A stretch of DNA of 63,315 nt from an uncultured Desulfovibrio sp. (GTDB lineage Bacteria > Desulfobacterota > Desulfovibrionia > Desulfovibrionales > Desulfovibrionaceae), in the NCBI RefSeq assembly GCF_944327235.1, contig NZ_CALVHE010000003.1:1-63315 (forward strand), read 5' to 3'. Positions 3,589-31,673 of this stretch are shown here, one piece after another. Below the pieces are notes generated by a model, which saw only the letters and a program-made list of their open reading frames with translations, searched no databases and had not been told where the DNA came from. Within the stretch, counting starts at the first letter, position 1; each line of letters opens with the position of its first letter. The position numbers and the translations under genes were made by a program.

Positions 3589-4227
3589 TCATTTGAATCG
3601 AATGATGAAATTCCTCTGCGGGATGTCATGGACAGCGCCGAAAAAAGCGAACGTGCGCTTCCTCTGGTGCGGCACGCCGCCCATGTCGGAAAAGCGTATA
3701 TCCGCTTCCAGCGTGAACTCTCCGAGCACATCCCGCATCCGGGCATTGTCCCGCTCAAGCCCCCATTCCACCGCCAGTTCAAGCAGAGGAAGGAGGTAGG
3801 CGGGCAGCTTCATTTCAGCGGCATGTTCCCCGCCGGGCAGCAGGTGATCGATAAAAGCCGCGCACGGAAGGGAAAGGCCCCTGCTTGAAAAGCCGTTTTC
3901 TTCAGAGTGGAAAATCTTTATCTGCCCGTCTTCTCGCGCCAAAGAGATGCCTTCGTCCCGCAGCGCCTCGTTAACGACGGGAATGAGTCGCTCCAGGGGC
4001 ATGGAAAGCTCCACGCGCACATCTTTGGCCACGCCGAATCCGACATTGCGAAGCCGGAGACAGGGGGCATCCTCTCCGGTGGTGAGGACAGGAAAGATGC
4101 AGGCGATGTCCGGACGCCATGAGGCTTCCCGCTGCCGCTTCATTTCCGTCACCGTGCGCCATGTCGCCAGAGCGGCGGCGCAGGAACCCAGGGCGGCAAA
4201 CATGCTGGCTATATCGGAGACGTTCAT
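3589..4227 (-). CDS. Hypothetical protein with N-terminal membrane segment
   Basis: 212 aa, not recognised. The first ~25 residues form one probable membrane helix (MFAALGSCAAALATW), followed by a basic coiled stretch and a mostly soluble domain with aromatic strands. The stop lies 9 bp before topB and the start 1 bp after the stop of the primase gene, so it is a tightly coupled member of the transfer operon. No catalytic motif is visible. Such membrane-anchored soluble proteins are common but I cannot assign a role. Confidence 0.6.
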   Translation of the reverse strand: MNVSDIASMFAALGSCAAALATWRTVTEMKRQREASWRPDIACIFPVLTTGEDAPCLRLRNVGFGVAKDVRVELSMPLERLIPVVNEALRDEGISLAREDGQIKIFHSEENGFSSRGLSLPCAAFIDHLLPGGEHAAEMKLPAYLLPLLELAVEWGLERDNARMRDVLGEFTLEADIRFSDMGGVPHQRKRTFAFFGAVHDIPQRNFIIRFK

Positions 4228-7313: not shown

Positions 7314-9235
7314 GCGTCCTCCAGAAAATCCTCAAAGCGTATCGTGGGCGCAGGCGCGGACGGTTGTTCCTCTGCCGGCGCGGGCGCGCGATACAGGGAA
7401 TCCGACACGGCGGGAGCGGGCATCTTCGAGCGTTCGGAAAACACCGGATCGCGGAAGTAGAGGATCTGCCGCCCGTAAATGGGCGGCTGTCCCGCCGTGA
7501 AGACAAGCATGTGGCCGGGCTTGACGACCTTGCCCGATGCGTCCTTCACCGCGCCGGGCAGCTTGCCGCACTCGTCCGGCGTCAGCAGCGGACGGGCCGT
7601 TTCCGAGATGCTGATGGAGCGGGACGTGCCCCCCTTGCCCTTGGACAGGGACTCCTTGCGTTCAACCACCGTCGTCTGACCTGTCATCTTGGACAGTACT
7701 TCCGCCGTTTCGGGATCATTGGGCGCGTAGGCGATGCGCACATGGCAGTTACCCATGATGGAGGTCTCCTTGCCGTATTCGCCATAGAGCTGACGGATGT
7801 CCTGGATGATGATGTAGAGCTTGCCGCCGTACCCGGCGATGTAGGCAAGCCCCTTTTCGATGACCGGCAGCTTGCCCAGAGACGTGAACTCGTCCAGCAT
7901 GAACAGCAGGCGATGCCTGTAGCCCGCCTTGCTCGCGCCGCCCTCGAATTCCATCTTCGCGCAGACATGGCGGACGATCATGTCCACCATGAGGCGCATC
8001 AGCGGGCGCACACGGTCGATGCCGCTTGGCGGCACAACCAGATAGAGATCCACCGGCGAGTCGCTGTTCATCAGATCTTTCAGCCGGAAATCCGACCGCG
8101 AGGTGTTCAGGGCGATGATGGGATCGCGGTACAGGCCCATGTTGACCAGCGCCGTGGAGAAGACGCCGGAGCGCTCCTTCTTCTCCTTGGCCAGCATCTC
8201 CCGCGCGCTGGAGGCGATGAAGACATGGCAGGCGTGCATGACTTCGGCGGACGGCTTTTGCTCGAACTTCCCGAACAGATCGTCATGGGAGCCGGTCATG
8301 GCGCTCAACAGCTCGTCCATCGAACCCTTTTCCCCGGCCAGCGTGAGCGTCAGGTCATGCAGGGTGGCGAAGCGCTTCTCCCGCGCCATGACGGTGATGC
8401 AGCAATGGAGAATGGCCCCGCCAAAGAAGGAAAAGGCGGCCTTTGTCCAGTGTTCGCTCAGCCCCTTGCCGTCCGGATCGATGAGCATGAGGGCGATATT
8501 CTGCACGTCCTGTATGGCCTCAAGGCTGTGCAGCCGCACTTCCGCCAGCGGATTGAAGGAGCAGCCGTTGCCGGAGGCATCCGTGGGATCGAACCGCAGC
8601 ACCTTGTGCCCTTGCGATCGCCGCCAGCCGGCGGTCAGCGCCCAGTTTTCCCCCTTGATGTCCAGCGTGATGGACGACCCCTGCCAGGCAAGCAGGGTCG
8701 GCAGGATGAGGCCCACGCCCTTGCCGGAACGGGTGGGCGCGAAGCACAGGATGTGTTCCGGGCCGTTGTGCCGCAGATAGCGCAGGCGCTTCTTTTTGGC
8801 GTCCCACCAGCCGCCCACATAGACGCCCTGGCCGTTGAGATAGCCCATGTCCCGTATCTCCCGTTCCGTGGCCCAGCGCGCGGATCCGTGCAGGATGGCA
8901 TTGCCCCGGAGCAGGCGCATGGCCATGACGCACAGCAGCACGAACATCAGCGGCAGGATGAAGAACGTCTGGCCGACCGTTTGCGCGCCGGTCATGATGT
9001 CTGGATGGATGTCCCAGATGAAGATCTTCCACGGCGCGTAGACGGGCAGCTTGCCCAGCCTGAACAGCGGAGCGCCGAGGGCCTCATGGAAGCCGTAGTC
9101 CGACGCCGCCTTGAAGGTGGCCGCCGTCATGCCCAGCAGCGCCAGCACGGGAATGGCCGCCAGCGCCACCCAGAAGGCCGTCCGGGGACGGCGGGACTCC
9201 TTCTGATCCTGAAGACCGTAATGCCGTTCCTTCAT
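7310..9235 (-). CDS. traG: TraG/VirD4 type IV coupling protein
   Basis: 641 aa. Two N-terminal membrane helices (about 22-42 and 88-110) anchor the ATPase domain. Walker A is at 166-173 (APTRSGKG) and Walker B is LLFMLDEF followed by TSLGKLP, both typical of TraG/VirD4. The protein docks the relaxase-DNA complex onto the mating channel. Start ATG at 9235 follows GTGAGG. It sits between trbI and traF; in RP4 traG and traF are also adjacent. The relaxase it should recruit is not in the window. Confidence 0.95.
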   Translation of the reverse strand: MKERHYGLQDQKESRRPRTAFWVALAAIPVLALLGMTAATFKAASDYGFHEALGAPLFRLGKLPVYAPWKIFIWDIHPDIMTGAQTVGQTFFILPLMFVLLCVMAMRLLRGNAILHGSARWATEREIRDMGYLNGQGVYVGGWWDAKKKRLRYLRHNGPEHILCFAPTRSGKGVGLILPTLLAWQGSSITLDIKGENWALTAGWRRSQGHKVLRFDPTDASGNGCSFNPLAEVRLHSLEAIQDVQNIALMLIDPDGKGLSEHWTKAAFSFFGGAILHCCITVMAREKRFATLHDLTLTLAGEKGSMDELLSAMTGSHDDLFGKFEQKPSAEVMHACHVFIASSAREMLAKEKKERSGVFSTALVNMGLYRDPIIALNTSRSDFRLKDLMNSDSPVDLYLVVPPSGIDRVRPLMRLMVDMIVRHVCAKMEFEGGASKAGYRHRLLFMLDEFTSLGKLPVIEKGLAYIAGYGGKLYIIIQDIRQLYGEYGKETSIMGNCHVRIAYAPNDPETAEVLSKMTGQTTVVERKESLSKGKGGTSRSISISETARPLLTPDECGKLPGAVKDASGKVVKPGHMLVFTAGQPPIYGRQILYFRDPVFSERSKMPAPAVSDSLYRAPAPAEEQPSAPAPTIRFEDFLEDA

Positions 9236-9242
9236 GGAAACC

Positions 9243-10445
9243 TCACTGCCGCCAGCGCGTATAGGGCTGGCGGAAAATGATGTCTTTCGTCACCACGATG
9301 TTGAACTGGTAGCCGGGCCGGATCTCCAGCGTCGGCTTGATGCTCAGATTGCGCTGGAGAAGCGTCGTGGTGGCCTGTCCGAGCTGCGCGGCAAGCGCCG
9401 AGGTCATCTCGTCGCTCATGCGCGTGCCGTTGTCCGTCTCCGTGGAGTCGTTGGTGCTGTCCATAGCGTAGGCCATGCCACCGGAGACCAGAGACATCAT
9501 CAGCGCCGAGCCGAAGATGCGCAGGTAATGGTTGTTCACCTGATCATTCAGGCCGGCCATGCCGCCCATGTCCGCGCCGGGCATGGCTCCCAGCGTGATG
9601 GATGACCCGTCCGGATAGATGAGCCTATTCCAGGCGATGAGGACGCGCTCCTGCCCGTAGACCACGCGGGAATCGTAGATCCCGTACAGCCTCGACCCCT
9701 GCGGGATGAGCAGATGGCGTCCGGTGGCCGTGTCGTAGATATTCTGCGAGACCTGCGCGATCATGTTGCCCGGCAAGTCCGAATTCACGCCCGTCAGCAT
9801 GACGCCGGGAACCACCGAGCCCGTCTTGAGCTCATAGGGCATACCTTCCGTGCGCTGTTCGGCAAGTTGCCATGAGGTATCCTTGCGGGCGCGCGCGAAG
9901 AACGCTTCCTTGTCCCTGTCCGCCGCCGGATCGTAATTTTCCGACGGCGGGATATGGCCGGCCTGTCCCGATGAGCCGGGGACGGCTGCCGGGGCCGCCG
10001 CGTTGGCCTCTGCCGGGGCCGCCGTGCGGCGTACCGAGACCAGCGGCGAGGACAGCGCGCTCATGTACGACTGGCTGCGCGTCCGCCGAAGCTGCTCCAC
10101 GCGCTGCTCCTCCGCCGTGGACTTCTGGACGACCACCACGGGCGGACGTTTTTCGTCAGGTGTTTCCTTTTGCGCTCCGGAGACGGCGGGCGCGGTCGCT
10201 CCGGGCAGCGGCCCGGCCACGCCCTGTCCCTGCGCGTCCACCAGCGGCTTCACGTCTTCCGCATGTTCGGGCTCCGGCACGGCGGCGCTTTGTTCGGCGG
10301 GCCTGTGAGAAAAGGAGACGCTGTAAATCAGGGCGGCCAACAGCAGCAATGCCGCACCGCAGGCCGCATACAGTGGCCACTTCCGCATCCGGGTCGTTCC
10401 CGGATCGGGAGAGATGTCCAGTCCATTGGGCGAGGAATCGTTCAT
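9243..10445 (-). CDS. trbI: TrbI/VirB10 core-complex protein
   Basis: 400 aa. Cytoplasmic N-terminus, one membrane helix (about 24-46), a long Pro/Ala-rich periplasmic linker, then the conserved VirB10 C-terminal barrel with LLIPQGSRLYGIYDS and LIYPDGSSITLG. The protein spans both membranes and gates the outer-membrane pore formed with TrbG. ATG at 10445 overlaps the trbG stop by 4 bp (ATGA). Length matches the family. Confidence 0.95.
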   Translation of the reverse strand: MNDSSPNGLDISPDPGTTRMRKWPLYAACGAALLLLAALIYSVSFSHRPAEQSAAVPEPEHAEDVKPLVDAQGQGVAGPLPGATAPAVSGAQKETPDEKRPPVVVVQKSTAEEQRVEQLRRTRSQSYMSALSSPLVSVRRTAAPAEANAAAPAAVPGSSGQAGHIPPSENYDPAADRDKEAFFARARKDTSWQLAEQRTEGMPYELKTGSVVPGVMLTGVNSDLPGNMIAQVSQNIYDTATGRHLLIPQGSRLYGIYDSRVVYGQERVLIAWNRLIYPDGSSITLGAMPGADMGGMAGLNDQVNNHYLRIFGSALMMSLVSGGMAYAMDSTNDSTETDNGTRMSDEMTSALAAQLGQATTTLLQRNLSIKPTLEIRPGYQFNIVVTKDIIFRQPYTRWRQ

Positions 10446-11334: not shown

Positions 11335-12030
11335 TCACTTGAAGACCTTGCTGGCGGAAAGGTGCGTGATGTACACCCCGCCGGGATTGTGCAGCAGGAC
11401 GGCTTCGGATGTAGGCGGGACGATGCGTATGGTGACGGTCGCCTCGAACGCGGTGCTCTCCAGCGCCACTCCGGCATGGGAGCGCACGGTCTCAGTCCAC
11501 TCCACACGATAGGAGTCACTGGAGACCGGCAGCGGCAGGCTTTTCACTTCCACATGCACAAGGCGTCCTCCCTTGGCGATCTCATAGGGATTGTTCGTGC
11601 TGAACCACTCCTTCAGCACGCCCTTGGCGCTGCCCGCGCAGTAAAAGGAAAGCCGCTGGATCATCTGCCGCTGGAGCTCCACGTCCGCCGTGACCGTGCG
11701 CCAGTCCGTGATGAAGCTCGCGATGTCGGCCTGAATGAGCCGCAGCGGCGCGGCGCTGGCCTGATCCGCGCGAGTCGTCACCGACGCCTTGCCCAGCCTG
11801 TCCACCTCGATGATGTAGGGCACGGCCTTGACCTGCATGGACTGCATGATGTTGCCGCCCAGCGACACCAGCAAAAGCAGCAGAGACAGCAGCGCCGCCT
11901 GCCGCCAGTGTCGGGCGCGGGCGATGTAGGAACCATACCGCTCCAGCCACTCCCGCCGGGCGTTCAGGTAAGGGCTGTGCTCGTCCGTCGTTCCGGCGGA
12001 CGCCTTTTCTTTCTTGCCGAAAAAGCTCAT
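11335..12030 (-). CDS. trbF: TrbF/VirB8 inner-membrane scaffold
   Basis: 231 aa from the ATG at 12030 (GAGGAGAGG just upstream); a TTG 15 bp further up is less likely. A short cytoplasmic head (MSFFGKKEK) precedes one membrane helix (about 45-66) and a periplasmic VirB8/NTF2-like domain with RVEWTETVRS. It scaffolds the inner-membrane complex. The first ~35 bp of this gene are copied at the start of another gene at 13638, and its 5' end lies only 30 bp from a divergent rightward gene. Confidence 0.92.
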   Translation of the reverse strand: MSFFGKKEKASAGTTDEHSPYLNARREWLERYGSYIARARHWRQAALLSLLLLLVSLGGNIMQSMQVKAVPYIIEVDRLGKASVTTRADQASAAPLRLIQADIASFITDWRTVTADVELQRQMIQRLSFYCAGSAKGVLKEWFSTNNPYEIAKGGRLVHVEVKSLPLPVSSDSYRVEWTETVRSHAGVALESTAFEATVTIRIVPPTSEAVLLHNPGGVYITHLSASKVFK

Positions 12031-12059
12031 ATTGCCTCTCCTCAAACAGGAGGTTGATC

Positions 12060-12566
12060 ATGAAGGCATCTCGAAAACGCCCCCATGCGCGCCGTCCGCT
12101 CACTCCAGTCAGGACGAGGGCACGGCGAGGATCCGTCGCCAGAGCCGCGTCCCCGGCGGCTCGTCCCAATGCGCAAAACAATATTTCCCAATGGCTTTCG
12201 CTGTACTCGCTCACAAGTTCGCAAGCCCACTCCGCATTGAATATCCTTGCTTCCATCGCCGTGGTGGCCAATTCCGCCTTTGCCTTTGCGGCATTCGGCA
12301 GAGGGGCTTACAACTTCTTTTCTGTCGGAATAGGTCTCTATCTTGTTTCTCTTGCCGCCTATGTCGGCTATTTTCTGGTCTGTTTTGAAGCAAAGAAAAA
12401 AATCAAAAACTTTGTCCTCAATCAAGAAAAGATTGAATTATTAAAAATGGTAAATACGATTGAACGTAGAGAGGGACGTGTATTTTTATTAATATTATTT
12501 GTCATATCCATATCATTTTTATCTTTCTTGTTTATTGACTGTGGTTTGTCTGAAAAAATAAAATAA
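12060..12566 (+). CDS. Rightward islet gene A: basic head plus three membrane segments
   Basis: 168 aa, family not recognised. The ATG at 12060 has a strong AGGAGG six bases upstream. Residues 1-40 are Arg-rich (about one residue in three is Arg or Lys); membrane segments lie at about 58-80, 85-108 and 143-163, separated by a charged cytoplasmic linker. It is opposite in strand to the surrounding operon and convergent with the next gene, overlapping it by 35 bp. A frameshifted paralogue sits at 13668. The two copies keep protein similarity in the C-terminal half (YFLVCF, NQE, NTIE.RE) where the DNA has diverged, which argues that the gene is real. Confidence 0.7.
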   Translation: MKASRKRPHARRPLTPVRTRARRGSVARAASPAARPNAQNNISQWLSLYSLTSSQAHSALNILASIAVVANSAFAFAAFGRGAYNFFSVGIGLYLVSLAAYVGYFLVCFEAKKKIKNFVLNQEKIELLKMVNTIERREGRVFLLILFVISISFLSFLFIDCGLSEKIK

Positions 12567-12897
12567 CAATTTGACAAACAAGCAAAAGACAGGGGGAAAA
12601 CAGTATTATGGAAAATAATAGGCATTCCATCAATTCTTCTCGACTTGATGATTCAGTGATCTTCATTAGCTCCATGAAAGCCCCCAAAAATATTCCAACC
12701 AACATGGCCGCGAAAAAGACACGAAGCAAAATCTCTGGGATGTCAGGGCGCACCATGTAGAAAATGCAGCCCATCAGAAACGGCAATGAGGCGAATGAAA
12801 AAAGAGCGATGCGCGTGGCGACATACGCAAGCCTCCTCAAGGCGGGTTCAGGCATGGTCGTGAGTTTCTTTTTCAAAAATTGAGGTAAATAGGGCAT
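12532..12897 (-). CDS. Islet gene F: small four-helix membrane protein
   Basis: 121 aa, not recognised. TAAGGAG precedes the ATG. A short basic head (LKKKL..MPEPALRRLA) leads into hydrophobic segments at about 29-49, 58-76 and 92-115. A charged linker KITESSSREEL separates the last segment. The first ~60 residues are almost identical to the protein at 14157-14507, while the remainder differs. It converges on rightward gene A with a 35-bp tail overlap. The pairing recurs at three other places in the element, so the two products may act together; no function is known. Confidence 0.65.
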   Translation of the reverse strand: MPYLPQFLKKKLTTMPEPALRRLAYVATRIALFSFASLPFLMGCIFYMVRPDIPEILLRVFFAAMLVGIFLGAFMELMKITESSSREELMECLLFSIILFSPCLLLVCQIVILFFQTNHSQ

Positions 12898-12929
12898 GAC
12901 GCGCTCCTTATTGTGTTACGCACTTGGCA

Positions 12930-13277
12930 TCAATGTTTAAATGTTTCCAAAGCTAGCCGAATAAATACAAACAAGCCGAATGACAGCACAAAGCAGAGTC
13001 CAAGAAGAAACTTGCATGATTCACTCAATTCAGAAGATTCTTTTTCTCTCACTTTTTTAAGGGAAACGCCCATGTCTATGCAAAACAGAATAAATATAAA
13101 AGTAAAGAAACCTGCAACAACATCCCAGCCCGCTTTAGGGAAAAGCACCCAGAACACGGCAAGAAGCAACGCGGCAATGAGCATGACCAATATGCGCAGG
13201 GCGTAATTGAGCCTTCTGAGTGATGTTTCGGAAAGCTCGTCAAACTTCCGGCCCAGGAAAGAAAACAGCGTGAACAT
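12930..13277 (-). CDS. Islet gene G: small membrane protein related to gene F
   Basis: 115 aa. The head LGRKFDELSETSLRRLNYALR aligns by eye with the head of the neighbouring gene F (KKKLTTMPEPALRRLAYVATR), and a charged linker REKESSELSES precedes the last helix, as in F. Predicted membrane segments are at about 28-48, 52-72 and 88-108. AAGGGG lies just before the ATG. I read it as a diverged member of the same small family standing alone, without a rightward partner. Confidence 0.6.
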   Translation of the reverse strand: MFTLFSFLGRKFDELSETSLRRLNYALRILVMLIAALLLAVFWVLFPKAGWDVVAGFFTFIFILFCIDMGVSLKKVREKESSELSESCKFLLGLCFVLSFGLFVFIRLALETFKH

Positions 13278-13287
13278 ATGGTTCCCC

Positions 13288-13638
13288 TTATGACTGCTGG
13301 TGCGGCTGGCGTTCGGGCCAGGGGCGCGGGAATCTCACCACTCCAGGCGGCGTGTCCGGCAAGCCGAGAATGCGGGCAAGATTGACCAGAAACATGTCCG
13401 TCCGGGCCAGCCAGCCCTCTATCCACGGGCAGCGCCGCAGGGTCTCCGGCGAATGCTTTTGCAGGCATTCAAGAAGTTCCCGCTGCTCATCAATGACTTT
13501 CCAGATGCCGCGTCCTTCATTGCTCTCAACGCAGAATTCTCTGACAGCGAGCAGGCAGGTATCCCTCGTATCGCTTTCAGCCCCGCCGTGTTCGCTTTCA
13601 ATGGCAGGCGTCTTTTCTTTCGTGTCGAAAAAGCTCAT
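13288..13638 (-). CDS. Islet gene H: soluble protein with a trbF-derived start
   Basis: 116 aa from the ATG at 13638, preceded by the same GAGGAGAGG context as trbF. The first nine residues (MSFFDTKEK) copy those of TrbF (MSFFGKKEK) and the DNA is similar for about 35 bp; the rest is unrelated. No membrane segment; the C-terminal half is a helical stretch rich in Leu/Arg/Trp (CPWIEGWLARTDMFL). It appears that duplication of the trbF 5' end together with gene A placed a foreign reading frame under the trbF translation start. Function unknown. Confidence 0.55.
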   Translation of the reverse strand: MSFFDTKEKTPAIESEHGGAESDTRDTCLLAVREFCVESNEGRGIWKVIDEQRELLECLQKHSPETLRRCPWIEGWLARTDMFLVNLARILGLPDTPPGVVRFPRPWPERQPHQQS

Positions 13639-13667
13639 ATTGCCTCTCCTCAAACAGGAGGTTGATC

Positions 13668-14176
13668 ATGAAGGCATCTCGAAAACGCCCCTATGCGCGC
13701 CGTCCGCTCACTCCGGTCAGGACGAGGGCACGGCGAGGATCCGTCGCCAGAGCCGCGTCCCCGGCGACCCGTCCCGATGCACAAAACAACATTTCCCAAT
13801 GGCTTTCGCTGTACTCGCTCACAAGTTCGCAAGCCCACTCCGCATTGAATATCCTTGCTTCCATCGCCGTGGTGGCCAATTCCGCCTTTGCCTTTGCGGC
13901 ATTCGGCAGAGGGGCTTACAACTTCTTTTCTGTCGGAATAGGTCTCTATCTTTTTCTCTTATCATCTATGTCCTCTACTTTCTGGTGTGTTTTAAAATAA
14001 AAAACACAGTTCAGAAGTTTGTTATCAATCAAGAAAGAGCAGACATTTCCAAAATTATAAATACAATTGAAGGCAGAGAGAGGTGGATAATTTCTTTAAT
14101 GCTGCTCGTCACACTTGTTTCATATGCTTCTTTCTTTGCTATCGATTACAGCCTGGCTAAAGGAAAAACACCGTAG
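13668..14176 (+). pseudogene. Rightward islet gene B: frameshifted paralogue of gene A
   Basis: The first ~290 bp match gene A almost base for base, including AGGAGG and the Arg-rich head. At 13951-13955 the sequence reads five Ts where gene A has TTGTTT, so one base is missing and the frame ends at 14000 after about 110 aa. The -1 frame continues to a stop at 14176 and aligns with the gene A C-terminus (YFLVCF, KFVINQE, NTIEGRE). The break is recent, a sequencing error, or a slippage switch in the T tract. The 3' end overlaps the convergent gene I by 20 bp. Confidence 0.6.
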
Positions 14177-14507
14177 ATACTATTCCAACGCAGAGGATAG
14201 AGAAAAAAAACGTCATCATGGAAAGCAGTATGATGTCGATCAATTCTTCTTGGCGTGATGACTTGGTGATCTTCAGCAGCTCCGCGAAAACCAAAAGCAT
14301 CGCGCCAACCAGCATGGTCGCGAAAAAGACACGAAGCAAAGCCTCGGAGATGTCAGGGCGCACCATGTAGAAAATGCAGCCCATCAGAAACGGCAATGAG
14401 GCGAATGAAAAAAGAGCGATGCGCCTGGTGATATGCGCAAGCCTTCTCAAGGCGGGTTCAGGCATGGTCGTGAGCTTCTTTTTCAAAAATTGAGGTAAAT
14501 AGGGCAT
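14157..14507 (-). CDS. Islet gene I: small membrane protein, paralogue of gene F
   Basis: 116 aa. The first ~60 residues are nearly identical to gene F (12532-12897); after KITKSSRQEEL the sequence changes to a different hydrophobic tail. AAGGAGAG precedes the ATG. It converges on the broken gene B, reproducing the A/F arrangement, and lies 18 bp downstream of trbL. Conserved heads with different tails in both paralogue pairs suggest exchange of the central block by recombination. Confidence 0.62.
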   Translation of the reverse strand: MPYLPQFLKKKLTTMPEPALRRLAHITRRIALFSFASLPFLMGCIFYMVRPDISEALLRVFFATMLVGAMLLVFAELLKITKSSRQEELIDIILLSMMTFFFSILCVGIVSTVFFL

Positions 14508-14525
14508 GACGCTCTCCTTGTTGCG

Positions 14526-15671
14526 CTATTCGCCGTCCGGCATCTTGGGCATCTGCGCCTGAAGCAGGCGGTTGCGCAGGCTGGAGGCCACGGTGCTTTG
14601 CCGCTCCCCCCTGTTGTGCGACGCTTCGCGGGATGCCCCCCAGAGATGCGAGGCCGCGCCCCTGATGGTGCCGCCTATGCCGGACGCCCCTTCGGCCCGC
14701 GCCGTCCTGGCCGCTAGGCCGATGTTGCGCGCGGCGGCCATGCCCAGCGCCCCGGCCCCCACGGCGGCGGCTCCCATCGTCGCCACCGTGGACGACAGGG
14801 CGTTGCCCGTGCTCACATGCGAGCCGCTGATGATCCCGGACACCACGTCCGGCAGCGTCTTCACCAGCGAATAGAAGATGACGCAGAAGCAGATGGTGAC
14901 ACCGATCTGCGCCCAATCCATCTCTTCTGAAACTTGCAACGTGGTGATAAAATTGATACCCACGCCCATGACGAGCTGCATGGTCATCAGCTTGAAGGCC
15001 ACAGCAAAGACGTAGCGCAGCGCGTTGATGGCGTACTCCCGGAAAAAGGACGTGGCCCCCAGGCCCAGCAGGATGGCCGACGCGCACATGGCCACGATGC
15101 ACTCGCACTTGATCATGATGATTTGCAGCGTGATCAGCGCGAAGCAGAAGAGAATCGCCATGCCTGCAAGGATGTAGGCTAAAGAATCAAGAGGCTTAAT
15201 TAACTTTGTTTTACTAAACAGAGACTTCGATATTTCAAGACCAACAGTAAAAGGCTTATCCGAAGCGTCTACGAGGGTTGTCGCTTCACCCGCGATGGTC
15301 TTGAGGCCGTTGATAACGTTCCATGTCCATTCATGGTAGTTGTTGATGACGGCAAGGAAAAATCCAGCGCCAAGCAGAATCATGACAAAATCCTTGATGG
15401 CATCCTTAATGTCCGAAGCGCCAAGAGCTTTTTTTATGCCGAGAAATACAATCTCAAGCACAGCACACCAGTAAAAAACAACCTTTGCGTACTTGAGCAT
15501 GACGGATTCATACCGTGAAAGTTCATTGTGGAACTTTGACACAATATCTGAGACGATGGTTCCGCCTTGAACTTCCGCATGAACAGGATTAGTATCCAAG
15601 AGCAACACAAATCCTATGAGGAGTATTATTATGCGGAAAATATTTTTTGCTTTTTGTGCAGTGTCCGTCAT
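14526..15671 (-). CDS. trbL: TrbL/VirB6 polytopic channel protein
   Basis: 381 aa. Signal-like first helix, then about six membrane segments, with a Gly/Ala-rich cytoplasmic tail typical of P-type TrbL. It forms the inner-membrane conduit of the mating channel. The 5' part (about 15180-15671) is much more AT-rich than the 3' part, suggesting that the N-terminal half was replaced. The start overlaps the rightward gene at 15631 by 41 bp; the ribosome site before the ATG at 15671 is weak. VirB6-type proteins are the donor targets of entry exclusion in some plasmids, which makes the mosaic N-terminus interesting. Confidence 0.88.
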   Translation of the reverse strand: MTDTAQKAKNIFRIIILLIGFVLLLDTNPVHAEVQGGTIVSDIVSKFHNELSRYESVMLKYAKVVFYWCAVLEIVFLGIKKALGASDIKDAIKDFVMILLGAGFFLAVINNYHEWTWNVINGLKTIAGEATTLVDASDKPFTVGLEISKSLFSKTKLIKPLDSLAYILAGMAILFCFALITLQIIMIKCECIVAMCASAILLGLGATSFFREYAINALRYVFAVAFKLMTMQLVMGVGINFITTLQVSEEMDWAQIGVTICFCVIFYSLVKTLPDVVSGIISGSHVSTGNALSSTVATMGAAAVGAGALGMAAARNIGLAARTARAEGASGIGGTIRGAASHLWGASREASHNRGERQSTVASSLRNRLLQAQMPKMPDGE

Positions 15672-15939
15672 GTTTATAACTCAATCCGTCCATGCCTTTG
15701 AATTGGAGGGGCAATGGAAGCAAGAGGTTGTAAATGAGAAAGTTCCTGATAGCATAAAAATTACCAAAGAAACTTTTTTTGGATTCACGTATAAAATTTT
15801 ATCAAAAGAAAACGGAATTATAAAAATATCAATACAAAATTCGGATGATCCAACAATTATAAAAATCAACAATGATGACAGTATTACGATAACAACGGTA
15901 AATGGAGATACAGGAACATATTCACGAGTCAGCGAGTAG
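15631..15939 (+). CDS. Islet gene C: small secreted protein at the trbK position, opposite strand
   Basis: 102 aa from the ATG at 15631 (GAGGAG eight bases upstream). Signal peptide of about 21 residues ending SVHA, then a Lys/Ile/Asn-rich beta-type domain of about 80 residues with no cysteine and no lipobox. Strongly AT-rich. It ends 3 bp from the convergent trbJ stop and overlaps the trbL 5' end. In RP4 the entry-exclusion gene trbK sits between trbJ and trbL; this gene occupies that slot in inverted orientation. An exclusion role is inference from position only. Confidence 0.65.
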   Translation: MRKIFFAFCAVSVMFITQSVHAFELEGQWKQEVVNEKVPDSIKITKETFFGFTYKILSKENGIIKISIQNSDDPTIIKINNDDSITITTVNGDTGTYSRVSE

Positions 15940-15942
15940 CAT

Positions 15943-16743
15943 CTAAAATGGATCAGGCTTGGATGTGGTATCCAACTTGTCAAACCCATCAAGCATTTTG
16001 CGATGTAAGTTCTCCTCCATCTGATCCACCTTTTCCTCCTTGGACTGTCCCGCCATATCCGCCTGGAACTTCGTTGCGATAAGTTCGCGGAGCTGGCGGG
16101 ACTCCTGTATTTGCAGGGCGGCAAGCTGATTGCCCGCCATGATGGCCTTTTGCTGCCCGTCGGGCGTGGACAGCAACTCGTTGATGTAGGCTTCCATCCT
16201 GCCCGCATCCTCAAGATCCTTGAGCTGGCTGGCCGAGAGCTGGAAGGTCGCCTTGGTGGATTCGTCCACGCGGTCGCTCCAGTTGTCCCAATACGTCCGA
16301 TAGGTCACCGCGCCCCCGGAGAGCATGTCACGGGGCAGGGACGCCAGTTCCCGGAACTCGTCGCGGGTGCGGTACAGCTCGTCAAAGACATTGGCCATGC
16401 CGGTGATGTCGTTACGCATGGTGTGCAGGGCCCCGGTCAGACGGCCAAGCTTGCTCAGTTCTCCAGAGACTTCTTGGATGAGATGCGCCGGGAGCTGGAC
16501 GGTGTTCTGCACCATATTGGCGTACTGCTCGATATTCTGCTGCACCATCTGGATCTGCTGTGCCGTCTGCTGGACGTATTGGTCATAGGCCAGTTTCAGC
16601 TCCGCGAGCTGGGAGTTGGCCAGCGCCTTTTCCAGCGCCTGCATGGCGCTGGTGGAGCAGTTGACGCAGTACACGTTCCCGGCATGGGCCGGAGCGGTGT
16701 ACAGGGCGGCAAATACGATGGCGGCAAGGGCTGTCTTCTTCAT
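15943..16743 (-). CDS. trbJ: TrbJ/VirB5 minor pilus protein
   Basis: 266 aa. Signal peptide (cleavage near AHAGN), a conserved cysteine pair VYCVNCST directly after it, and long amphipathic helices (QQTAQQIQMVQQNIEQYANM) as in P-type TrbJ. It is periplasmic and probably sits at the tip of the mating pilus. It lies 20 bp downstream of trbE. Confidence 0.9.
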   Translation of the reverse strand: MKKTALAAIVFAALYTAPAHAGNVYCVNCSTSAMQALEKALANSQLAELKLAYDQYVQQTAQQIQMVQQNIEQYANMVQNTVQLPAHLIQEVSGELSKLGRLTGALHTMRNDITGMANVFDELYRTRDEFRELASLPRDMLSGGAVTYRTYWDNWSDRVDESTKATFQLSASQLKDLEDAGRMEAYINELLSTPDGQQKAIMAGNQLAALQIQESRQLRELIATKFQADMAGQSKEEKVDQMEENLHRKMLDGFDKLDTTSKPDPF

Positions 16744-16763: not shown

Positions 16764-19169
16764 CTAATCCTGTTCGTTCATCCACGCTTCCTGCCAGGCA
16801 TCAGGCCCATGCTGGGCCATGAGCGCCTTGATACGGGCGATGCTTTCCTTGTCCGACGCGCCCACGAAGGCCAGTTCCTTCCGGCGCAGGCCGAGCTGGA
16901 ACAGACGGCGGCCATAGCCGTTGACCATGTAGTAGTCCCGCTTGGGGCGAGCATGGGTGATGATGCCGATCTGGCGGTCGTTGAGGCCGCACGCCTGATA
17001 CAGGTCGAGGTTATCCCGGTTCATGGCTTCGGCATTGGGCAGATAGATCTTGGTGGGGCAGGACTCCACAAGCACGTCGATGATGCCGCTGTTGCGGGCA
17101 TCGGAAAGCGCCTGCGTGGCCAGCAGCACCGCGCAGTTGGCCTTGCGCAGCACCTTGAGCCATTCCCGGATCTTGGCGCGAAAGACGGGATGCCCCAGCA
17201 TGATCCACGCCTCGTCCAGGATGAGCAGCGTCGGACGGCCATCCAGGGCCTGTTCGATGCGATGGAAAAGATAGGTCAGCACGGGGATGAGATTGCGATC
17301 CCCCTGCTTCATGAGTTCCTCGACCTCAAAGACCACAAGGGACGAAAGGCCCAGCGTATCCGATTCCGCATCGAGCAGGCTGCCCATAGCCCCCTTGAGC
17401 GTGAAATGCGCAAGGTCTTCCCGGATCTGCATATCCGGCACAAGATGCAGCAGATTGGTCAGTGAACGCATGTGCTCCGGCTGATTGGCCAGCTCCCGCA
17501 GACCGGTGTTGATGGCGTTGCGCATGGCGGGCAGCACGGCCACGTTCTGCAATTCGAGGAGAGAAGCGAGCCATTCCGCCGCCCAGGCGGTCTCTCCGGG
17601 CTGGTCGATGTGTTGCAGGGGAGCGAAGGCCAGCTTGTCATCCACGCCGATCTCGTAATGGGAACCGCCAAGGGCGGCGGCCAGGGGAAACAGCGACATA
17701 CCCTTGTCGAAGGCGAAGATGCGGGCATTGGCATAGCGCCGGAAGTTCCAGGCGATCTCCGCGATCAGCGTGGACTTGCCTGCGCCCGTGGGGCCGAAGA
17801 CAAGCGTGTGACCACGATCCCCTTCATGCAGATTGAACCAGAACGGCGTGGAACCGTCGGTCAGAAAAACGGCCAGCGGAGGGGAGTCCGGCGGATAGAA
17901 GGGGCAGGGGCAGGCATCCTGCCCTGTCCAGACGGATTGCAGAGGCAGCAGATCCGCAAGGTTGAGCGTATTGACGATGGGCCGGCGCAGATTGGCGTAA
18001 CTGTTGCCGGGCAGGCTGCCGAGCCAGGCTTCCAGCGCGTTGACGGTCTCAATGCGGCAGCCGAAGCCCGCCGCCTGTATGGCCCGGCGCAGCGTGCGGG
18101 CATTCTCCGCCAGGACTTCCGTATCCTTGTCCAGCAGGACGATGCAGGAGGTCAGATAGCCTGCACCGACGATCCCGGACTGGACTTCCGTCTTGGCGTC
18201 TTCCGCATCTTCGCGCATGGCCAGCGCATCCCGATTGACCTTGGGGTTGGGATTGTTCAGGAACTGATCCATGAAGCCGAGGACGCGCTGGTTCCAGCCC
18301 TTGACCTGCCGGTTGACTTCCCGTTCCGCATCATACTGGTCAAGGCAGATGAAGCGGGTGGAGTAGCGTAGTTCAAAGGGCATCTCATCCAGCATGGCCA
18401 GCATGGCGGGCCATGACTCCTGCGGCAGGCCGTCGATGCTCACGATGGCCAGATGGCGGTTGCCCAGACGCGGGGCAAGTCCGCCGGTCAGATCTTCACT
18501 CCCCAGCACGGCATCCAGATACATGGGGATATGCGGTACGCGCAGGGGGTGCAGCGTGCCGGTCAGGCAGCTTTGCAGCCAGGCCAGCAGCTCCGACCAG
18601 CGGGCGGGGACACCGGCGGCGTCAGGCAGGTCGTATTCCGCAAGACGCTGCATACTCAGTACGGCGGAGCAGGCATCCTCGAATTCCAGCAGAGTATTGC
18701 GGAAGGTCTCAAGAGTTTTTTCAAGCGTGGAGGAAGGTCGCCCGCCCCTGGCCGCTCCCGCCATGCGCGCGGCATGGAAGTTGGGCAGCCAGGTGACGGT
18801 CAGGAAGGTGGACGTGCGGTAGCAGATGTCCTGCCCGAAAAAGGCCCGGCGCTCGTCATCGAGGAGCCGCGAGACACGATCCGGGAAGTGGGAGCGCTCC
18901 GGCGCGGGATAGGCGCGCTGCGTATCGCGGCAGGCATCCACATGGAGCATCCAGCCAGTGCCCAGCAGCTTGACGGCGCCGCTGAACCGCTCCGACATGT
19001 ACGCCAACTCCGTGGGAGTGGAGCTGGCCGTGTCCTGACCGCGAATCTCCCATGCCGCGAGGAAGGAGCCGTCCTTTTGCAGGACGATTCCGGGATCAAT
19101 GAGAGCTGCATAGGTCAGCAGATCGGGCAGCCCCTTTGCCCGACTGCGGAAGTCGCTCAATTTCAACAT
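16764..19169 (-). CDS. trbE: TrbE/VirB4 ATPase
   Basis: 801 aa, usual VirB4 size. N-terminal CagE/VirB4 domain, Walker A at 459-467 (GPTGAGKST), Walker B RPTLLILDEAW, and the following ATQALSDARNSGI block. It powers pilus assembly and substrate passage at the inner membrane. The ATG lies one base after the stop of the thermonuclease gene (TAG-ATG), so its ribosome site GGAGGG is inside that gene and the two are translationally coupled. Confidence 0.95.
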   Translation of the reverse strand: MLKLSDFRSRAKGLPDLLTYAALIDPGIVLQKDGSFLAAWEIRGQDTASSTPTELAYMSERFSGAVKLLGTGWMLHVDACRDTQRAYPAPERSHFPDRVSRLLDDERRAFFGQDICYRTSTFLTVTWLPNFHAARMAGAARGGRPSSTLEKTLETFRNTLLEFEDACSAVLSMQRLAEYDLPDAAGVPARWSELLAWLQSCLTGTLHPLRVPHIPMYLDAVLGSEDLTGGLAPRLGNRHLAIVSIDGLPQESWPAMLAMLDEMPFELRYSTRFICLDQYDAEREVNRQVKGWNQRVLGFMDQFLNNPNPKVNRDALAMREDAEDAKTEVQSGIVGAGYLTSCIVLLDKDTEVLAENARTLRRAIQAAGFGCRIETVNALEAWLGSLPGNSYANLRRPIVNTLNLADLLPLQSVWTGQDACPCPFYPPDSPPLAVFLTDGSTPFWFNLHEGDRGHTLVFGPTGAGKSTLIAEIAWNFRRYANARIFAFDKGMSLFPLAAALGGSHYEIGVDDKLAFAPLQHIDQPGETAWAAEWLASLLELQNVAVLPAMRNAINTGLRELANQPEHMRSLTNLLHLVPDMQIREDLAHFTLKGAMGSLLDAESDTLGLSSLVVFEVEELMKQGDRNLIPVLTYLFHRIEQALDGRPTLLILDEAWIMLGHPVFRAKIREWLKVLRKANCAVLLATQALSDARNSGIIDVLVESCPTKIYLPNAEAMNRDNLDLYQACGLNDRQIGIITHARPKRDYYMVNGYGRRLFQLGLRRKELAFVGASDKESIARIKALMAQHGPDAWQEAWMNEQD

Positions 19170-19670: not shown

Positions 19671-19751
19671 GGCCTTTCCGTTGGAGGTTGAAGAAAAGAA
19701 CTGTATGGTGCGTCGTGGCATGGCAATAAGCCGTATCAACAGGAGGAAATC

Positions 19752-20270
19752 ATGCGCATGGGAAGCCTTCGGTTTCATCGTCGTGGAAAGGGTGTCATCA
19801 GGAACAGGAACAAGTTCGGAAGTTCCCCCCGAAAAGGGAAAAAGCCTTTCAAGCCTAAAAGCAATTCTTTCAAAAAAGAAAGTTATAAAAGATTTTCTTC
19901 CCTTCTTTCATCATCAAATACTCATCTTCAGACTTTTCTAGCGGCCTTTTCTTCATCTATTATGGCGATAGACATTGCACTTCTTATACTTTTTATGAAT
20001 AACTTAGAAAGTCAAAAAATTAGAGAGGCGTATCTTAAATACATATCTCTATTTACCGTATGCTTGGTAGCATTTTTTGTAGCCATATTTATTATATTTA
20101 TTCGTCGAATATTTATTATTTGGAAAATTAAAAGAAACGTTTTCAATATTGAAAATGAACAATATAATTATGAATACTGGTTGACAATCGCCTATATTAT
20201 AATTCTTACCGCGTGTACATATTTTGCAGCTATATTTATATATATTGTTTGGACTTTTCATTCGATGTAA
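19752..20270 (+). CDS. Rightward islet gene D: basic head plus three membrane segments
   Basis: 172 aa, not recognised. AGGAGG six bases before the ATG. Residues 1-47 are very rich in Arg/Lys; membrane segments at about 66-84, 95-117 and 145-167. From about 19850 onward the DNA is strongly AT-rich, unlike the flanking operon. It ends 2 bp from the stop of the convergent gene J. The plan (basic head, two helices, charged linker, last helix) matches gene A although sequence similarity is weak. Confidence 0.65.
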   Translation: MRMGSLRFHRRGKGVIRNRNKFGSSPRKGKKPFKPKSNSFKKESYKRFSSLLSSSNTHLQTFLAAFSSSIMAIDIALLILFMNNLESQKIREAYLKYISLFTVCLVAFFVAIFIIFIRRIFIIWKIKRNVFNIENEQYNYEYWLTIAYIIILTACTYFAAIFIYIVWTFHSM

Positions 20271-20272
20271 TG

Positions 20273-20683
20273 TCATAAAACAAAAAACAGCAATATGTAT
20301 GATAAAACGAAGCCGTAGAATATAATTTTAATCATAATCTCAGCAGCTAATACGTTTTGTATTTCTTCTTCGGTTTCTACCCAATAGAACATCAGGTAAG
20401 AAAGAATCATGCAGGCTACAAGCGTCAACGTCTTTCCAAAAGCAATGAAGAGCCCTTTGAAAATAAATTCGTACACAAAAGAAAAGACAATCCCCGCAAC
20501 GAAGATCACAAACAGGATTTCCGCAGGCGCTATTCCCTTTGTGCCGTCCGGTCTGACTCTCCGGCGCATCAGGAAAGAATCAAGCACCCGGAGAGGCCAA
20601 AGCAGGATTTTCACACCATTGAGCGAAGCTTTCAGAAGCTTCATGCTCCACAGTTCATCATTTTCAATCTTCACTTCCTTCAT
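20273..20683 (-). CDS. Islet gene J: small membrane protein convergent with gene D
   Basis: 136 aa from the ATG at 20683 (GAGAGGTG upstream). A charged head, a basic stretch (MRRRVRPDG), then membrane segments at about 56-76, 80-98 and 112-134, with an acidic linker VETEEEI before the last, echoing the acidic linker of genes F and I. It begins 4 bp after the lytic transglycosylase stop, so it is co-transcribed with the operon. Unknown function. Confidence 0.62.
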   Translation of the reverse strand: MKEVKIENDELWSMKLLKASLNGVKILLWPLRVLDSFLMRRRVRPDGTKGIAPAEILFVIFVAGIVFSFVYEFIFKGLFIAFGKTLTLVACMILSYLMFYWVETEEEIQNVLAAEIMIKIIFYGFVLSYILLFFVL

Positions 20684-21242: not shown

Positions 21243-21266
21243 GTCAATTTCCCAATGGAGGTTTTC

Positions 21267-21698
21267 ATGATTCGTCGTTCTCAAGGTTGCCGTCCTGTCC
21301 GCCCCGCTGTTGTTCGCCGTCCTAGGCAGGTGCAGAAGCGCAAAGAAGAACAAGGTAAAAGCATTCAACATTCACATGAATATATGATGTTGGCATTAAA
21401 ATTTATGTTTGCGGCAAATGGAATTGCCACCACAACACTTCTTATAAATAATCTTCCAAATAAATCTGGTGCGGCTTTGTTATTTTATTCTTGCGGAGTT
21501 GCAGCTACAATTTTTTCAACATTATCTCTTTCGCTTATGGACGACAGAAATATTTTAAATAAAAATATTGTGTATAGAATTTTAAATTATTCTTATATTG
21601 CAACACGGATAATAATAGTTGTTTTTCCGTGTATATTGTTCATTTTGGGAATATTCTTCTCAATAGATATTTTTGCCAGTATACGAATTAAAAACTAA
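21267..21698 (+). CDS. Rightward islet gene E: basic head plus membrane segments
   Basis: 143 aa from the ATG at 21267, with GGAGG upstream. The head (residues 1-32) has about 12 Arg/Lys; hydrophobic segments at about 43-61, 68-88 and 107-130 follow. AT-rich after the head, like genes A, B and D. It is 25 bp divergent from the transglycosylase start and converges on gene K with a 17-bp gap. Fourth example of the same layout in the element. Confidence 0.62.
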   Translation: MIRRSQGCRPVRPAVVRRPRQVQKRKEEQGKSIQHSHEYMMLALKFMFAANGIATTTLLINNLPNKSGAALLFYSCGVAATIFSTLSLSLMDDRNILNKNIVYRILNYSYIATRIIIVVFPCILFILGIFFSIDIFASIRIKN

Positions 21699-21715
21699 CA
21701 CTTTGAGAAACTGAA

Positions 21716-21943
21716 TTATGATAAAATTAAAGGAATAGACAAAAAAAGCAGGCAATATACTGTCCAGAAAGCCAGAACTAAATATTTTGTCTTCCTTTGT
21801 TCAGTTTCACATTCTCGCATATATTCCCGCACGGCCCTGGCTTCCGCTTCCAGTCCTCTCCGCAGCGCGGCCCGCAACTGCTGTCTGTGCAGCGCGGGAG
21901 GCAGTATCCTGTGAGGGTGGCTTTTCCTTTGCTGAGGTCTCAT
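21716..21943 (-). CDS. Islet gene K: small C-terminally anchored protein
   Basis: 75 aa from the ATG at 21943 (GGAGAAGG upstream). Basic helical head rich in Arg/Gln/Ala, then one C-terminal membrane helix (about 54-74). The ATG overlaps the methylase stop by 4 bp, so it is translated with the operon. It converges on gene E. Shorter than the partner genes at the other islets. Confidence 0.58.
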   Translation of the reverse strand: MRPQQRKSHPHRILPPALHRQQLRAALRRGLEAEARAVREYMRECETEQRKTKYLVLAFWTVYCLLFLSIPLILS

Positions 21944-22996: not shown

Positions 22997-24127
22997 CTAC
23001 AGCGTCTGCCGGGCGCAGGTAGTGAAAACGAGGATCCGCGCGTAGTTCTCCGCCGGATAGATCCAGCCGTCCGCGTCGCCGAGGGAAGAGTCTCCTGTCT
23101 GGACGCGCAGATAGACTTGCCATTCCGTATCCGAAGCGGACACGGCCCACGTCTGAAAAGCCGTCAACGGCGGCGCATCAGGCCCGGCTTCCGCGAGGGA
23201 CGGCGATGTGTAGATTGCCGGGACGGTATTCGTGGACGGAGCGCAAGATGGCTTGGGGATGCGTTCGCCGTTCTTGGCAACCACGGCGCTTTTCAAAGCA
23301 GCCGAGTTGCCGGAGTCGCCGATGATCTCAAGCGAGTTGTTGCGGCAGATGTACAGCCCCTGGATCCGGTCGAGGAACACGCGCCCCTGATCTTCGGCGG
23401 CGGTACACGTTTCCGTCGTGATCTCCCGCTCAGTAAACTGGACGGACTGCACGTTGTTGATGGCGTGATCCGTCATGTCCAGAGAGGTCTGCATGGCGTT
23501 GAGTTCAGGATTGCCGGGCACGGCCACGCGGTAGAGATAGTCCTGCCCCAGGGCCGAGGAGTCATACGTCGAGAGCGCCCCGAGATGCCCCGCGCCCGGC
23601 GACGGGATGCCCAGCGCTGTCAGGCTGACGGTCCAGCCGTTCCCGGCCCCATGCAAAGAGTCCGCGCTTTGTCCGGCCAGGATCCCCGTGGGGATGAAGC
23701 CGCCCGCGCCGCCCACCAGAGAAGCGGCATGAGGCACGATCAGGTTACCGAACTTGTCCGAGGCATCCACCGCGCCGCGCCCGCCCGTGGTCAGCACGAC
23801 CGCCTGAAGCTGACCCGTCTCAGGCTGACGCACATAGATGCGATATTCCTGGTACCAGACGTTGCGCTCAGAGAAGCCGTCATGCAGGAAGCCTTCAGTG
23901 ACGAGCGTCGGGATCGTCACCGTGGGGCCGGAAGAGACGCCGGACTGGCTCAACAGCGTGTCTTGATGCCGGTTGACGTAGCTCCGGGCGGCCTGCACGA
24001 CCAGCCGCATGTGATCGGCGGCCAGGCGCTGCTGCGTGGCCGTGTTGCCCTGTTCCCACAGGGAAAGCAGGCCGGGAAGCATCAGGATGGTGATGATCAG
24101 TGCGCCGATGGCATTCAGAATGGTCAT
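22997..24127 (-). CDS. pilV: PilV-like type IVb minor pilin / tip adhesin
   Basis: 376 aa. Hydrophobic prepilin N-terminus (LNAIGALIITILMLPGLL) followed by an extended helix and a large extracellular domain, as in R64 PilV. In R64 PilV recognises the recipient cell and its C-terminus is switched by a shufflon. Here the gene is followed directly by the methylase; I see no rci recombinase or inverted 19-bp segments. The C-terminal quarter contains a conserved cysteine pattern. Confidence 0.82.
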   Translation of the reverse strand: MTILNAIGALIITILMLPGLLSLWEQGNTATQQRLAADHMRLVVQAARSYVNRHQDTLLSQSGVSSGPTVTIPTLVTEGFLHDGFSERNVWYQEYRIYVRQPETGQLQAVVLTTGGRGAVDASDKFGNLIVPHAASLVGGAGGFIPTGILAGQSADSLHGAGNGWTVSLTALGIPSPGAGHLGALSTYDSSALGQDYLYRVAVPGNPELNAMQTSLDMTDHAINNVQSVQFTEREITTETCTAAEDQGRVFLDRIQGLYICRNNSLEIIGDSGNSAALKSAVVAKNGERIPKPSCAPSTNTVPAIYTSPSLAEAGPDAPPLTAFQTWAVSASDTEWQVYLRVQTGDSSLGDADGWIYPAENYARILVFTTCARQTL

Positions 24128-29767: not shown

Positions 29768-31345
29768 CTAGTCCTCCGTGCCGCCCCCAGCGGCCTCAAG
29801 CTCTATGGTGATGACCAGCAGGGTCTTGGCGTACTGCCGCCCGCGCCCGAAGTTCAGCAGGCCGAGGGAATTGGCGAGCTGTTGCGTCTGATCCTGGAAG
29901 CCCGCCAGCACCAAGGTCTGGCCCATCTGCATCTGTGACCGCTGCGAGAAGGCGCGGGTGCTTGTTCTGGGAAGCTGCACCGTCAGATCGGCGGTGCTGA
30001 ACTCCGTCAGCTCATCCAAGCTGGACAAGTTGATGCTGTACTGGAGCAGCACACGCCTGCGATCCAGAATGTGCGGGATGATGGTCATGGCAAAGCCCGT
30101 CGTCACTTCGCCGGGCGTGATCTCCGATGTCTGTCCGTACTCCGATTGCGTGGACGACGAGCCCGCTAGGTATGCGATGCGCTTGATCGACTGGATGGGT
30201 ACAGGCTGGTTGGACAGCACGAGACCCCCCCCGGACGTGACCTGCGTGGCATTCCCCCACTCCTTGAGCGCCTTGAGCACGCCCGTGGAGTTTTTGAGAT
30301 CCCCGGACACGATGGTGGCCGAGGCCGTGGACGGCCCGCCCAGAGAAGACAGGCTGCCCGCGACGACGGACACGTCGCCGTTGGCGAAGATGGCTTGGAG
30401 ATCTATGCCCGCTTCCGCATCGTCAGAGACTTCCAGCGCCCAGACGTTGACCGTCAGCGCGACCTGTCTCGATAAGCGTTGATTGATGTCCGCAATGTAG
30501 CTCGATATCTGGCGAACATTCTCGAAGCGATCCCGGACCGTGATGGTGCCCGTGGCCTGGTTGCCGACCACCGAGCCTTCCGGCGAAAGCAGCGCTTTGA
30601 CGGCCTTTTCCGTGTCCACCCATACATCGTATGAGTATTGCGTCTTGTTGGACTGCATCGTCTGCGACGACGTGTCCGCCGTGGATACGGTTTGATTGAC
30701 TCCGCCCCCGCCGATGGAAGTGTTGGAGGTCTCCTTGCTCTTGTTGGTGATCTGCCCTTGGTACTCTTGTTTTCCAGGCGCGGAGAGCAACGTGAAGGTC
30801 TTCACCGTCAGGCGGGTAAAGACGACCGTCTTTGCCTTGGCGTCATACTCCCAGCCGTAGCCGCTGGCCATGGACACATGATCGAGCAGGCCGCGCAGCG
30901 TCCCCTCATAAGAAATGTTGAGGACAGTCCCCAGACCGCCGGACGGCACGTCCAGCAAGTCGGGCAGATCGGCGGGAGCGCCGGGCGCGGGTGTGGGAGC
31001 CTTGGCGGGCGTCAGCGGAGCCGGATCCGCGCCGACCTGCACCGTCAGCGGCGTCAGGTCGGAGATGCCCGCCGCGATGCGCGGCAGCGTCCCCCGCATA
31101 CGCAGGGTGACGTGCGTTGCCAGCTCCGGGGCGCTTTGCGCGCCCGCGCGAATAGGCACCGCTTTGGCCCCCACATACGGCTCCGCAACCACCTCCACTG
31201 ATTTAGAGCGGGAAAGGGTCGTAAACTCCTTGCCTCTGGCTTCCACATCCTCGTGCGTGGGCGCGCCCTTGTAGGAGCAGCCCACAAGGCTGACGCCAAG
31301 CAGCAGGATGGAAAGAAGGCGCATGATCCGGCTAGTTGTGTTCAT
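29768..31345 (-). CDS. pilN: PilN secretin lipoprotein (type IVb pilus)
   Basis: 525 aa. Lipobox LVGC near residue 23, N-terminal secretin N-domains, and a C-terminal secretin domain with TEFSTADLTVQLPRTSTRAF and a Gln/Leu-rich closing strand. It forms the outer-membrane pore of the thin pilus. Alternative starts at 31345 (ATG) and seven codons later cannot be separated. In R64 pilN is likewise a lipoprotein secretin. Confidence 0.88.
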   Translation of the reverse strand: MNTTSRIMRLLSILLLGVSLVGCSYKGAPTHEDVEARGKEFTTLSRSKSVEVVAEPYVGAKAVPIRAGAQSAPELATHVTLRMRGTLPRIAAGISDLTPLTVQVGADPAPLTPAKAPTPAPGAPADLPDLLDVPSGGLGTVLNISYEGTLRGLLDHVSMASGYGWEYDAKAKTVVFTRLTVKTFTLLSAPGKQEYQGQITNKSKETSNTSIGGGGVNQTVSTADTSSQTMQSNKTQYSYDVWVDTEKAVKALLSPEGSVVGNQATGTITVRDRFENVRQISSYIADINQRLSRQVALTVNVWALEVSDDAEAGIDLQAIFANGDVSVVAGSLSSLGGPSTASATIVSGDLKNSTGVLKALKEWGNATQVTSGGGLVLSNQPVPIQSIKRIAYLAGSSSTQSEYGQTSEITPGEVTTGFAMTIIPHILDRRRVLLQYSINLSSLDELTEFSTADLTVQLPRTSTRAFSQRSQMQMGQTLVLAGFQDQTQQLANSLGLLNFGRGRQYAKTLLVITIELEAAGGGTED

Positions 31346-31360
31346 GGTGTTGTCCTGTCA

Positions 31361-31666: not shown

Positions 31667-31673
31667 GTCCGCC

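Follow-up and report, generated by a model that had tools for sequence, protein, structure and literature searches.

In the plasmids F and R100, the specificity of entry exclusion lies in a short segment of TraG, a protein that is 93% identical overall between the two and 17% identical in this segment, residues 610–673 (PMC9797247). In IncC, the exclusion gene sfx is expressed independently of the transfer activator (PMC11493245). TrbK, an exclusion protein encoded within a trb operon in the transfer region, is not needed for transfer (PMC8923210), and EexA and EexB of the IncHI1 plasmid R27 form a two-protein exclusion system that is reportedly required on both the donor and the recipient side (cited in PMC8923210 and in the reference list of PMC7690428). 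Here we analyse 63,315 nucleotides of DNA from an uncultured Desulfovibrio sp. (contig NZ_CALVHE010000003.1; hereafter the window), where a conjugative element carries, within its Trb-type type IV secretion operon, a tandemly repeated cassette of two small convergent genes, A and F. We suggest, with a probability of about 0.4, that A and F constitute a two-gene module of small inner-membrane proteins that acts in entry exclusion, through recognition of self, and that is swapped as a matched block.

Gene A (12060–12566, plus strand) encodes a protein of 168 residues with a basic N-terminal tail followed by three long hydrophobic helices and runs antisense to the trb operon. Gene F (12532–12897, minus strand) encodes a three-helix membrane protein of 121 residues and runs with the operon, and the 3′ ends of the two genes overlap tail-to-tail by 35 nt. 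Both have strong ribosome sites (AGGAGG upstream of A, AAGGAG upstream of F). AlphaFold2 models contain three long helices in each protein at low to moderate confidence (pLDDT of 64 for A and 74 for F) and, together with hydropathy, predict small inner-membrane proteins, as in the entry-exclusion class; profile comparison detected no homology between A and F. Second copies of the two genes, B (13668–14000, plus strand) and I (14157–14507, minus strand; intact), share the same operon gap. The array is bordered downstream by trbF (VirB8 class; 11335–12030, minus strand) and upstream by trbL (VirB6 class; 14526–15671, minus strand). From trbL to trbF the intervening order is I, B, G, H, F, A, with I, G, H and F co-oriented with the operon and A and B opposed to it.

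The cassette units are about 925 bp long and are repeated at a spacing of 1608–1610 bp. A preliminary description of the locus had noted near-identical 5′ ends in A and B and common 5′ ends in F and I, and both are confirmed by direct repeats (11995–12294/13603–13902 at 96% identity; 12695–12918/14305–14528 at 93%). When the copies are aligned, the 5′ block differs by 2.1%, the centre by 37.8% and the 3′ block by 7.1%; a two-breakpoint model places the borders at 12354 and 12695 (2ΔlogL = 181). One near-constant end (11995–12354; 13603–13961 in copy 2) extends from inside the first codons of trbF through the 5′ half of A, and the other (12695–12918; 14305–14528 in copy 2) covers the 5′ half of F. 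Between them, a divergent centre (12355–12694, with 13962–14304 as its approximate counterpart) encodes the C-terminal ends of A and F and is AT-rich, its GC content falling to 0.24 against 0.61 for the window. Synonymous divergence (dS) between A and B is 0.055 in codons 1–94, with zero in codons 48–94, where the two are fully identical, and 0.76–0.92 in the C-termini; between F and I it is 0.085 in the N-termini and 0.50–0.65 in the C-termini. Because dS is low in the ends and high in the centre, which a single clock cannot yield, the tandem copies are recombinant mosaics, formed by replacement of the centre or by homogenisation of the ends; both routes are recombination. Positive selection alone was rejected as the source of the divergent centre, since synonymous sites diverge there too. 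The C-termini of A and B retain 46% amino-acid identity, and F and I are 69% identical over their full length.

Gene B, first taken for an intact equivalent of A, is frameshifted. A single missing base at about 13952, which coincides with the breakpoint, brings its reading frame to an end at 14000 after 110 residues, the last few outside the A frame; an A-like C-terminus nevertheless persists in another frame (13952–14176). A programmed frameshift was considered and rejected, as a run of five T is present but without a canonical slippery heptamer, and loss of a base at the recombination joint is likelier. The likeliest reading of the tandem array is that unequal recombination near the start of trbF brought two alleles together. 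Such a crossover would explain the trbF-like start of gene G (13288–13638, minus strand; a soluble protein), which begins with a copy of the trbF ribosome site and first ~12 codons because the repeat unit itself begins inside the first trbF codons; the G homologue in locus L007 adjoins trbL and has no such start. The DNA of the constant ends has no other copy among 79 genomes of the genus, in a set that holds one genome per species (348 for the order), so that strain-level alleles are not visible in it.

Both reading frames of the module are under purifying selection. Between the pairs of L037 and L038, ω is 0.34 for A (synonymous exceeding nonsynonymous change, p = 0.018) and 0.26 for F (p = 0.024), and for the C-termini of A and B it is 0.41 (p = 0.003); for F and I alone the synonymous excess is not significant (p = 0.06). 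The earlier observation that the centre diverges in DNA while the protein pattern is kept is upheld. The preliminary description had named neutral decay of the A and F frames in other elements as what would speak against a two-sided diversity cassette; selection is found instead, yet B is frameshifted and one relative, L063, lacks most of A. The constraint on the A protein also argues against antisense control, whereby an A transcript running against the operon would lower trb or pil expression and the proteins would be secondary. Such control would suit the antisense position of A in nine of nine pairs (below), the overlap of the genes and the further antisense genes of these operons, but it fits poorly with an A-family profile that is common to elements at very low DNA similarity, and promoter scans gave nothing in its favour; we consider it the least likely of the alternatives weighed here.

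In profile searches of the 348 genomes, A-family genes turned up in seven, all belonging to the genus (that of the window and six others), with every match in the order inside a conjugation or thin-pilus operon and none standing alone. They make up nine A/F pairs, three of them in the window, and are partly non-independent, the L037 and L038 pairs being orthologous and two window pairs being tandem copies. The third window pair comprises an antisense A-family gene (19752–20270, plus strand; 172 residues; E = 1.2e-5) and a convergent F-type membrane protein gene (20273–20680, minus strand) downstream of virB1, and sits between virB1 and a nuclease gene. Two further pairs occupy the same position (L037/L050 and L038/L051), three lie between virB1 and trbE (L019/L022, L027/L030 and L036/L052) and one (L004/L021) is flanked by the pilL- and pilN-type genes of a pil operon. 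The module is thus placed, like entry-exclusion genes, in the transfer region, at the trbL–trbF, virB1–trbE/nuclease and pilL–pilN sites. All nine pairs have the F-type gene co-oriented with the operon and A opposed to it; the 3′ ends overlap by 20–56 nt in eight and are 2 nt apart in the other. A-family matches near E = 1e-5 were accepted, each also having a convergent partner and an operon location; a match in G256 (E = 8.5e-4), set among ordinary long metabolic genes and without a convergent partner, was rejected. Neither plasmids nor viral contigs yielded a match when searched with A, F or the constant end.

The A/F pair is an accessory of a minority of elements; trbF itself was found in 22 of the 79 genus genomes. 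In L057, L061 and L062, virB1 and trbE lie 2–13 bp apart with nothing between them, and the trbL–trbF gap is just 13–35 bp in L008/L009. Since these sites are empty in related operons, A and F may be dispensable for the machinery.

Comparison of the window with L050 and L051 shows how the module varies between elements. These two share the pil–virB1–nuclease part with the window and carry, beyond the nuclease gene, a type IVB apparatus (DotI, DotD and TraI homologues; R64-like) in place of Trb. DNA identity is 89.5–89.7% in virB1 and 89.8–90.4% in the nuclease gene, whereas some 960 bp between these ~90% identical flanks (19713–20675 in the window) cannot be aligned; this block spans the A/F pair, beginning close to one start codon and ending close to the other. 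Between L027 and L063, near-identical elements whose differences fall chiefly in the cassette centre, virB1 is 95% identical and the sequence from the A start through the trbE start 99%, with F at 92–100% over its first 250 bp and 62–72% towards the centre; most of A is deleted in L063. Conserved flanks, a divergent interior and sharp borders therefore recur in three comparisons (copy 1 with copy 2, the window with L050/L051, and L027 with L063), and the difference between related elements is hypervariability of the type expected of exclusion specificity. That A and F are exchanged between elements as one block is well supported by these alignments. In L037/L038, dS is about 0.10 in the module against 0.26 in virB1 and 0.20 in the nuclease gene, so that the module may not share the history of its flanks. 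The block borders showed neither a recombinase nor a recombination site.

The exchange of a central block, as originally proposed, is borne out by the dS contrast of the window copies, the second slot with its ~90% flanks and the L027/L063 centre. The accompanying picture of constant ends and variable C-termini holds for the tandem copies and L027/L063 only, as at the virB1/nuclease slot the whole block differs, start codon to start codon. The further idea that two membrane proteins vary at once gains from the predicted three-helix proteins on both strands and loses from the broken B and the relative without most of A. On the reverse strand of L063, F in G207 is immediately preceded by a 48-codon open frame (3826–3972) whose upstream sequence and start are F-like; it may be what is left of a second F copy, or a separate small membrane gene.

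Small membrane genes might simply gather at permissive operon gaps, duplicate and decay, the mosaic being ordinary gene conversion of tandem copies, which alone could homogenise their ends. The frameshift in B, the L063 deletion and the often empty sites are what such neutral cargo would leave; however, the two-gene, two-strand architecture recurs at three sites in seven genomes, both genes are under purifying selection, and the block at the virB1 site was replaced without a tandem copy. This explanation is less likely than exclusion and, in our view, distinctly improbable.

We favour entry exclusion on account of the location of the module, its absence from intact related operons, its predicted membrane topology, its hypervariability and the split orientation of its genes; such a role suits these features better than do the other functions known for small transfer-operon genes. 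The split orientation is the telling feature, as F is tied to the operon and A is not necessarily so. In its most detailed form, which we regard as possible though doubtful, F would be a donor-side tag and A a recipient-side receptor, their tail-to-tail placement allowing a single double crossover to replace both specificities, with the tandem copies storing two identities. On the favoured reading itself, F would be produced along with the secretion apparatus and hence be present in donors, and A, driven by a signal of its own on the opposite strand, could be present even where the transfer operon is silent. As exclusion is needed in cells whose own transfer genes may be off, an independently expressed A would be a natural receptor, with F as its donor-side partner. 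An incoming apparatus or F of a type matching the resident A would lead to the blocking of redundant transfer, and because the two specificities would need to match, a convergent pair swapped in one double crossover would be favoured.

Several observations weigh against this role. Family searches with A, F, H, G and K (Pfam, NCBIfam, PADLOC and PHROGs) returned nothing significant, neither to TraS, TrbK or Eex nor to any other exclusion, immunity or defence family, and the A and F models found no fold match. Gene K (15616–15939, plus strand), at the trbK position, is already another exclusion candidate in these elements. The module family occurs alongside both Trb-type and type IVB apparatus, so no single common target is evident. 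One of the two A copies in the array, B, is broken. There are examples of F lacking A (H; L063; perhaps L013), and A was never found without F, a pattern that an antidote role for F would fit too. The F proteins of different pairs are weakly homologous (9–27% identity), their likeness resting on position, size and topology. Promoter scans were uninformative, as were terminator scans, and the independent expression of A stays inferred.

The evidence of location, topology and variability would serve equally for a pair that shields the inner membrane of its carrier from the conjugative secretion machinery (lethal zygosis or antagonism by the type IV secretion system (T4SS)) and does not act on DNA entry. 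There is precedent in the RP4 exclusion proteins TrbJ and TrbK, which guard recipients from T4SS killing (PMC11045733). Sequence cannot separate this self-protection from exclusion, and the pair is absent from many related elements; we rate it as less likely again than neutral cargo.

The main rival to exclusion is a toxin–antidote (addiction) pair that stabilises the element, A being a membrane toxin and F a membrane antidote, or the mRNA overlap silencing A. It holds that place because F persists without A and the reverse is not seen: A never occurs without an intact F, and F survives both a broken A (B/I in the window) and the loss of most of A (L063). Type I toxin–antitoxin systems of the txpA/RatA type consist of convergent, 3′-overlapping transcription units that include a membrane protein, and the tail-to-tail overlap of A and F is like that of such antisense-regulated pairs. 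A candidate HigA-like antitoxin gene, named from its sequence, also adjoins the pair in L021. Against it, no toxin or antitoxin family was matched, the copies all lie in transfer or pilus operons with none stand-alone among the 348 genomes, both proteins exceed 100 residues, unlike type I toxins, and a plain addiction pair does not need both partners variable. We consider a toxin–antidote pair unlikely.

Gene K, which shows a related pattern outside the A/F cassette, encodes an antisense signal-peptide protein between trbJ and trbL. An antisense signal-peptide or lipoprotein gene stands at this position in most related elements (L008 8519–8896, L009 8508–8960, L010 8528–8965, L013 1256–1612, L014 8455–8790, L016 8486–8881 and L018 7873–8151), several with a common GxWK-like motif after the signal peptide; it is possibly an antisense exclusion gene. 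At the trbL–trbF site of L007 lies an unrelated pair of soluble sense and antisense genes (8624–9199, plus strand; 9171–9926, minus strand) with a tail-to-tail overlap of ~29 nt, the sense protein having a G-like C-terminal part. Within the window array, gene H (12930–13277, minus strand) encodes a 115-residue membrane protein without an antisense partner and is a weak third relative of F (28% identity over 92 residues, E = 0.001).

The secretion operon of the window further includes trbJ (15943–16743, minus strand), trbE (16764–19169, minus strand) and, also on the minus strand, trbG, trbI and traG; the nearest relatives of its trbF are in Desulfovibrio genomes. The element also carries pil, topoisomerase and RdgC-like genes and a shufflon-type PilV (22997–24127, minus strand) with the constant N-terminal region (Pfam Shufflon_N, E = 4e-25). 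Upstream of virB1 is one more small membrane gene in antisense orientation (21255–21698, plus strand; in L037, 69–656, minus strand), and there the interval 21296–21822, unalignable to L050/L051 between flanks about 90–98% identical, forms a further exchange slot. The pilN-/pilL-type interval (31345–32285) is likewise unalignable to L050, with flanks 85–88% identical; the corresponding site in L021 holds the HigA-like gene and the A/F pair.

If the exclusion reading is correct, the module offers a simple genetic answer to an open question, how elements change exclusion identity yet keep donor and recipient matched. Annotation may then be missing exclusion-type genes that lie antisense in transfer operons. 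Concrete allele pairs are now at hand for mating tests.

How the module works can be set beside several known arrangements. In PilV shufflons of the R64 type, a constant part is joined to an exchangeable C-terminal part by a site-specific recombinase that inverts DNA, whereas the A/F block differs from element to element or from one tandem copy to the other. The txpA/RatA type shares with A and F the convergent, 3′-overlapping layout, but A and F are two conserved proteins of more than 100 residues without a family match. Our literature search, which covered few subscription journals, brought up no report of exclusion pairs that are convergent or antisense. TrbK of RP4 and pKPC_UVA01, which is dispensable for transfer (PMC8923210), resembles A and F as a small accessory gene of a trb operon; it is, however, a lipoprotein encoded between trbJ and trbL, whereas A and F are multi-helix proteins without a lipobox or sequence match to it, located at other gaps and with A antisense, and the gene that does occupy the trbK position, K, is antisense. 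EexA and EexB of R27 provide exclusion through two proteins, as is proposed for A and F. TraS/TraG of F and R100 and Eex/TraG of SXT/R391 also rely on a small inner-membrane protein encoded in the transfer region, and TraG, like A and F, has a hypervariable segment between constant parts, which in TraG sets specificity. The donor factor of TraS/TraG is a structural transfer protein, whereas the two factors proposed here are small, dedicated, convergent and co-exchanged, and show no sequence match to it. In their proposed way of working, A and F would therefore belong with the exclusion systems, though outside the known families.

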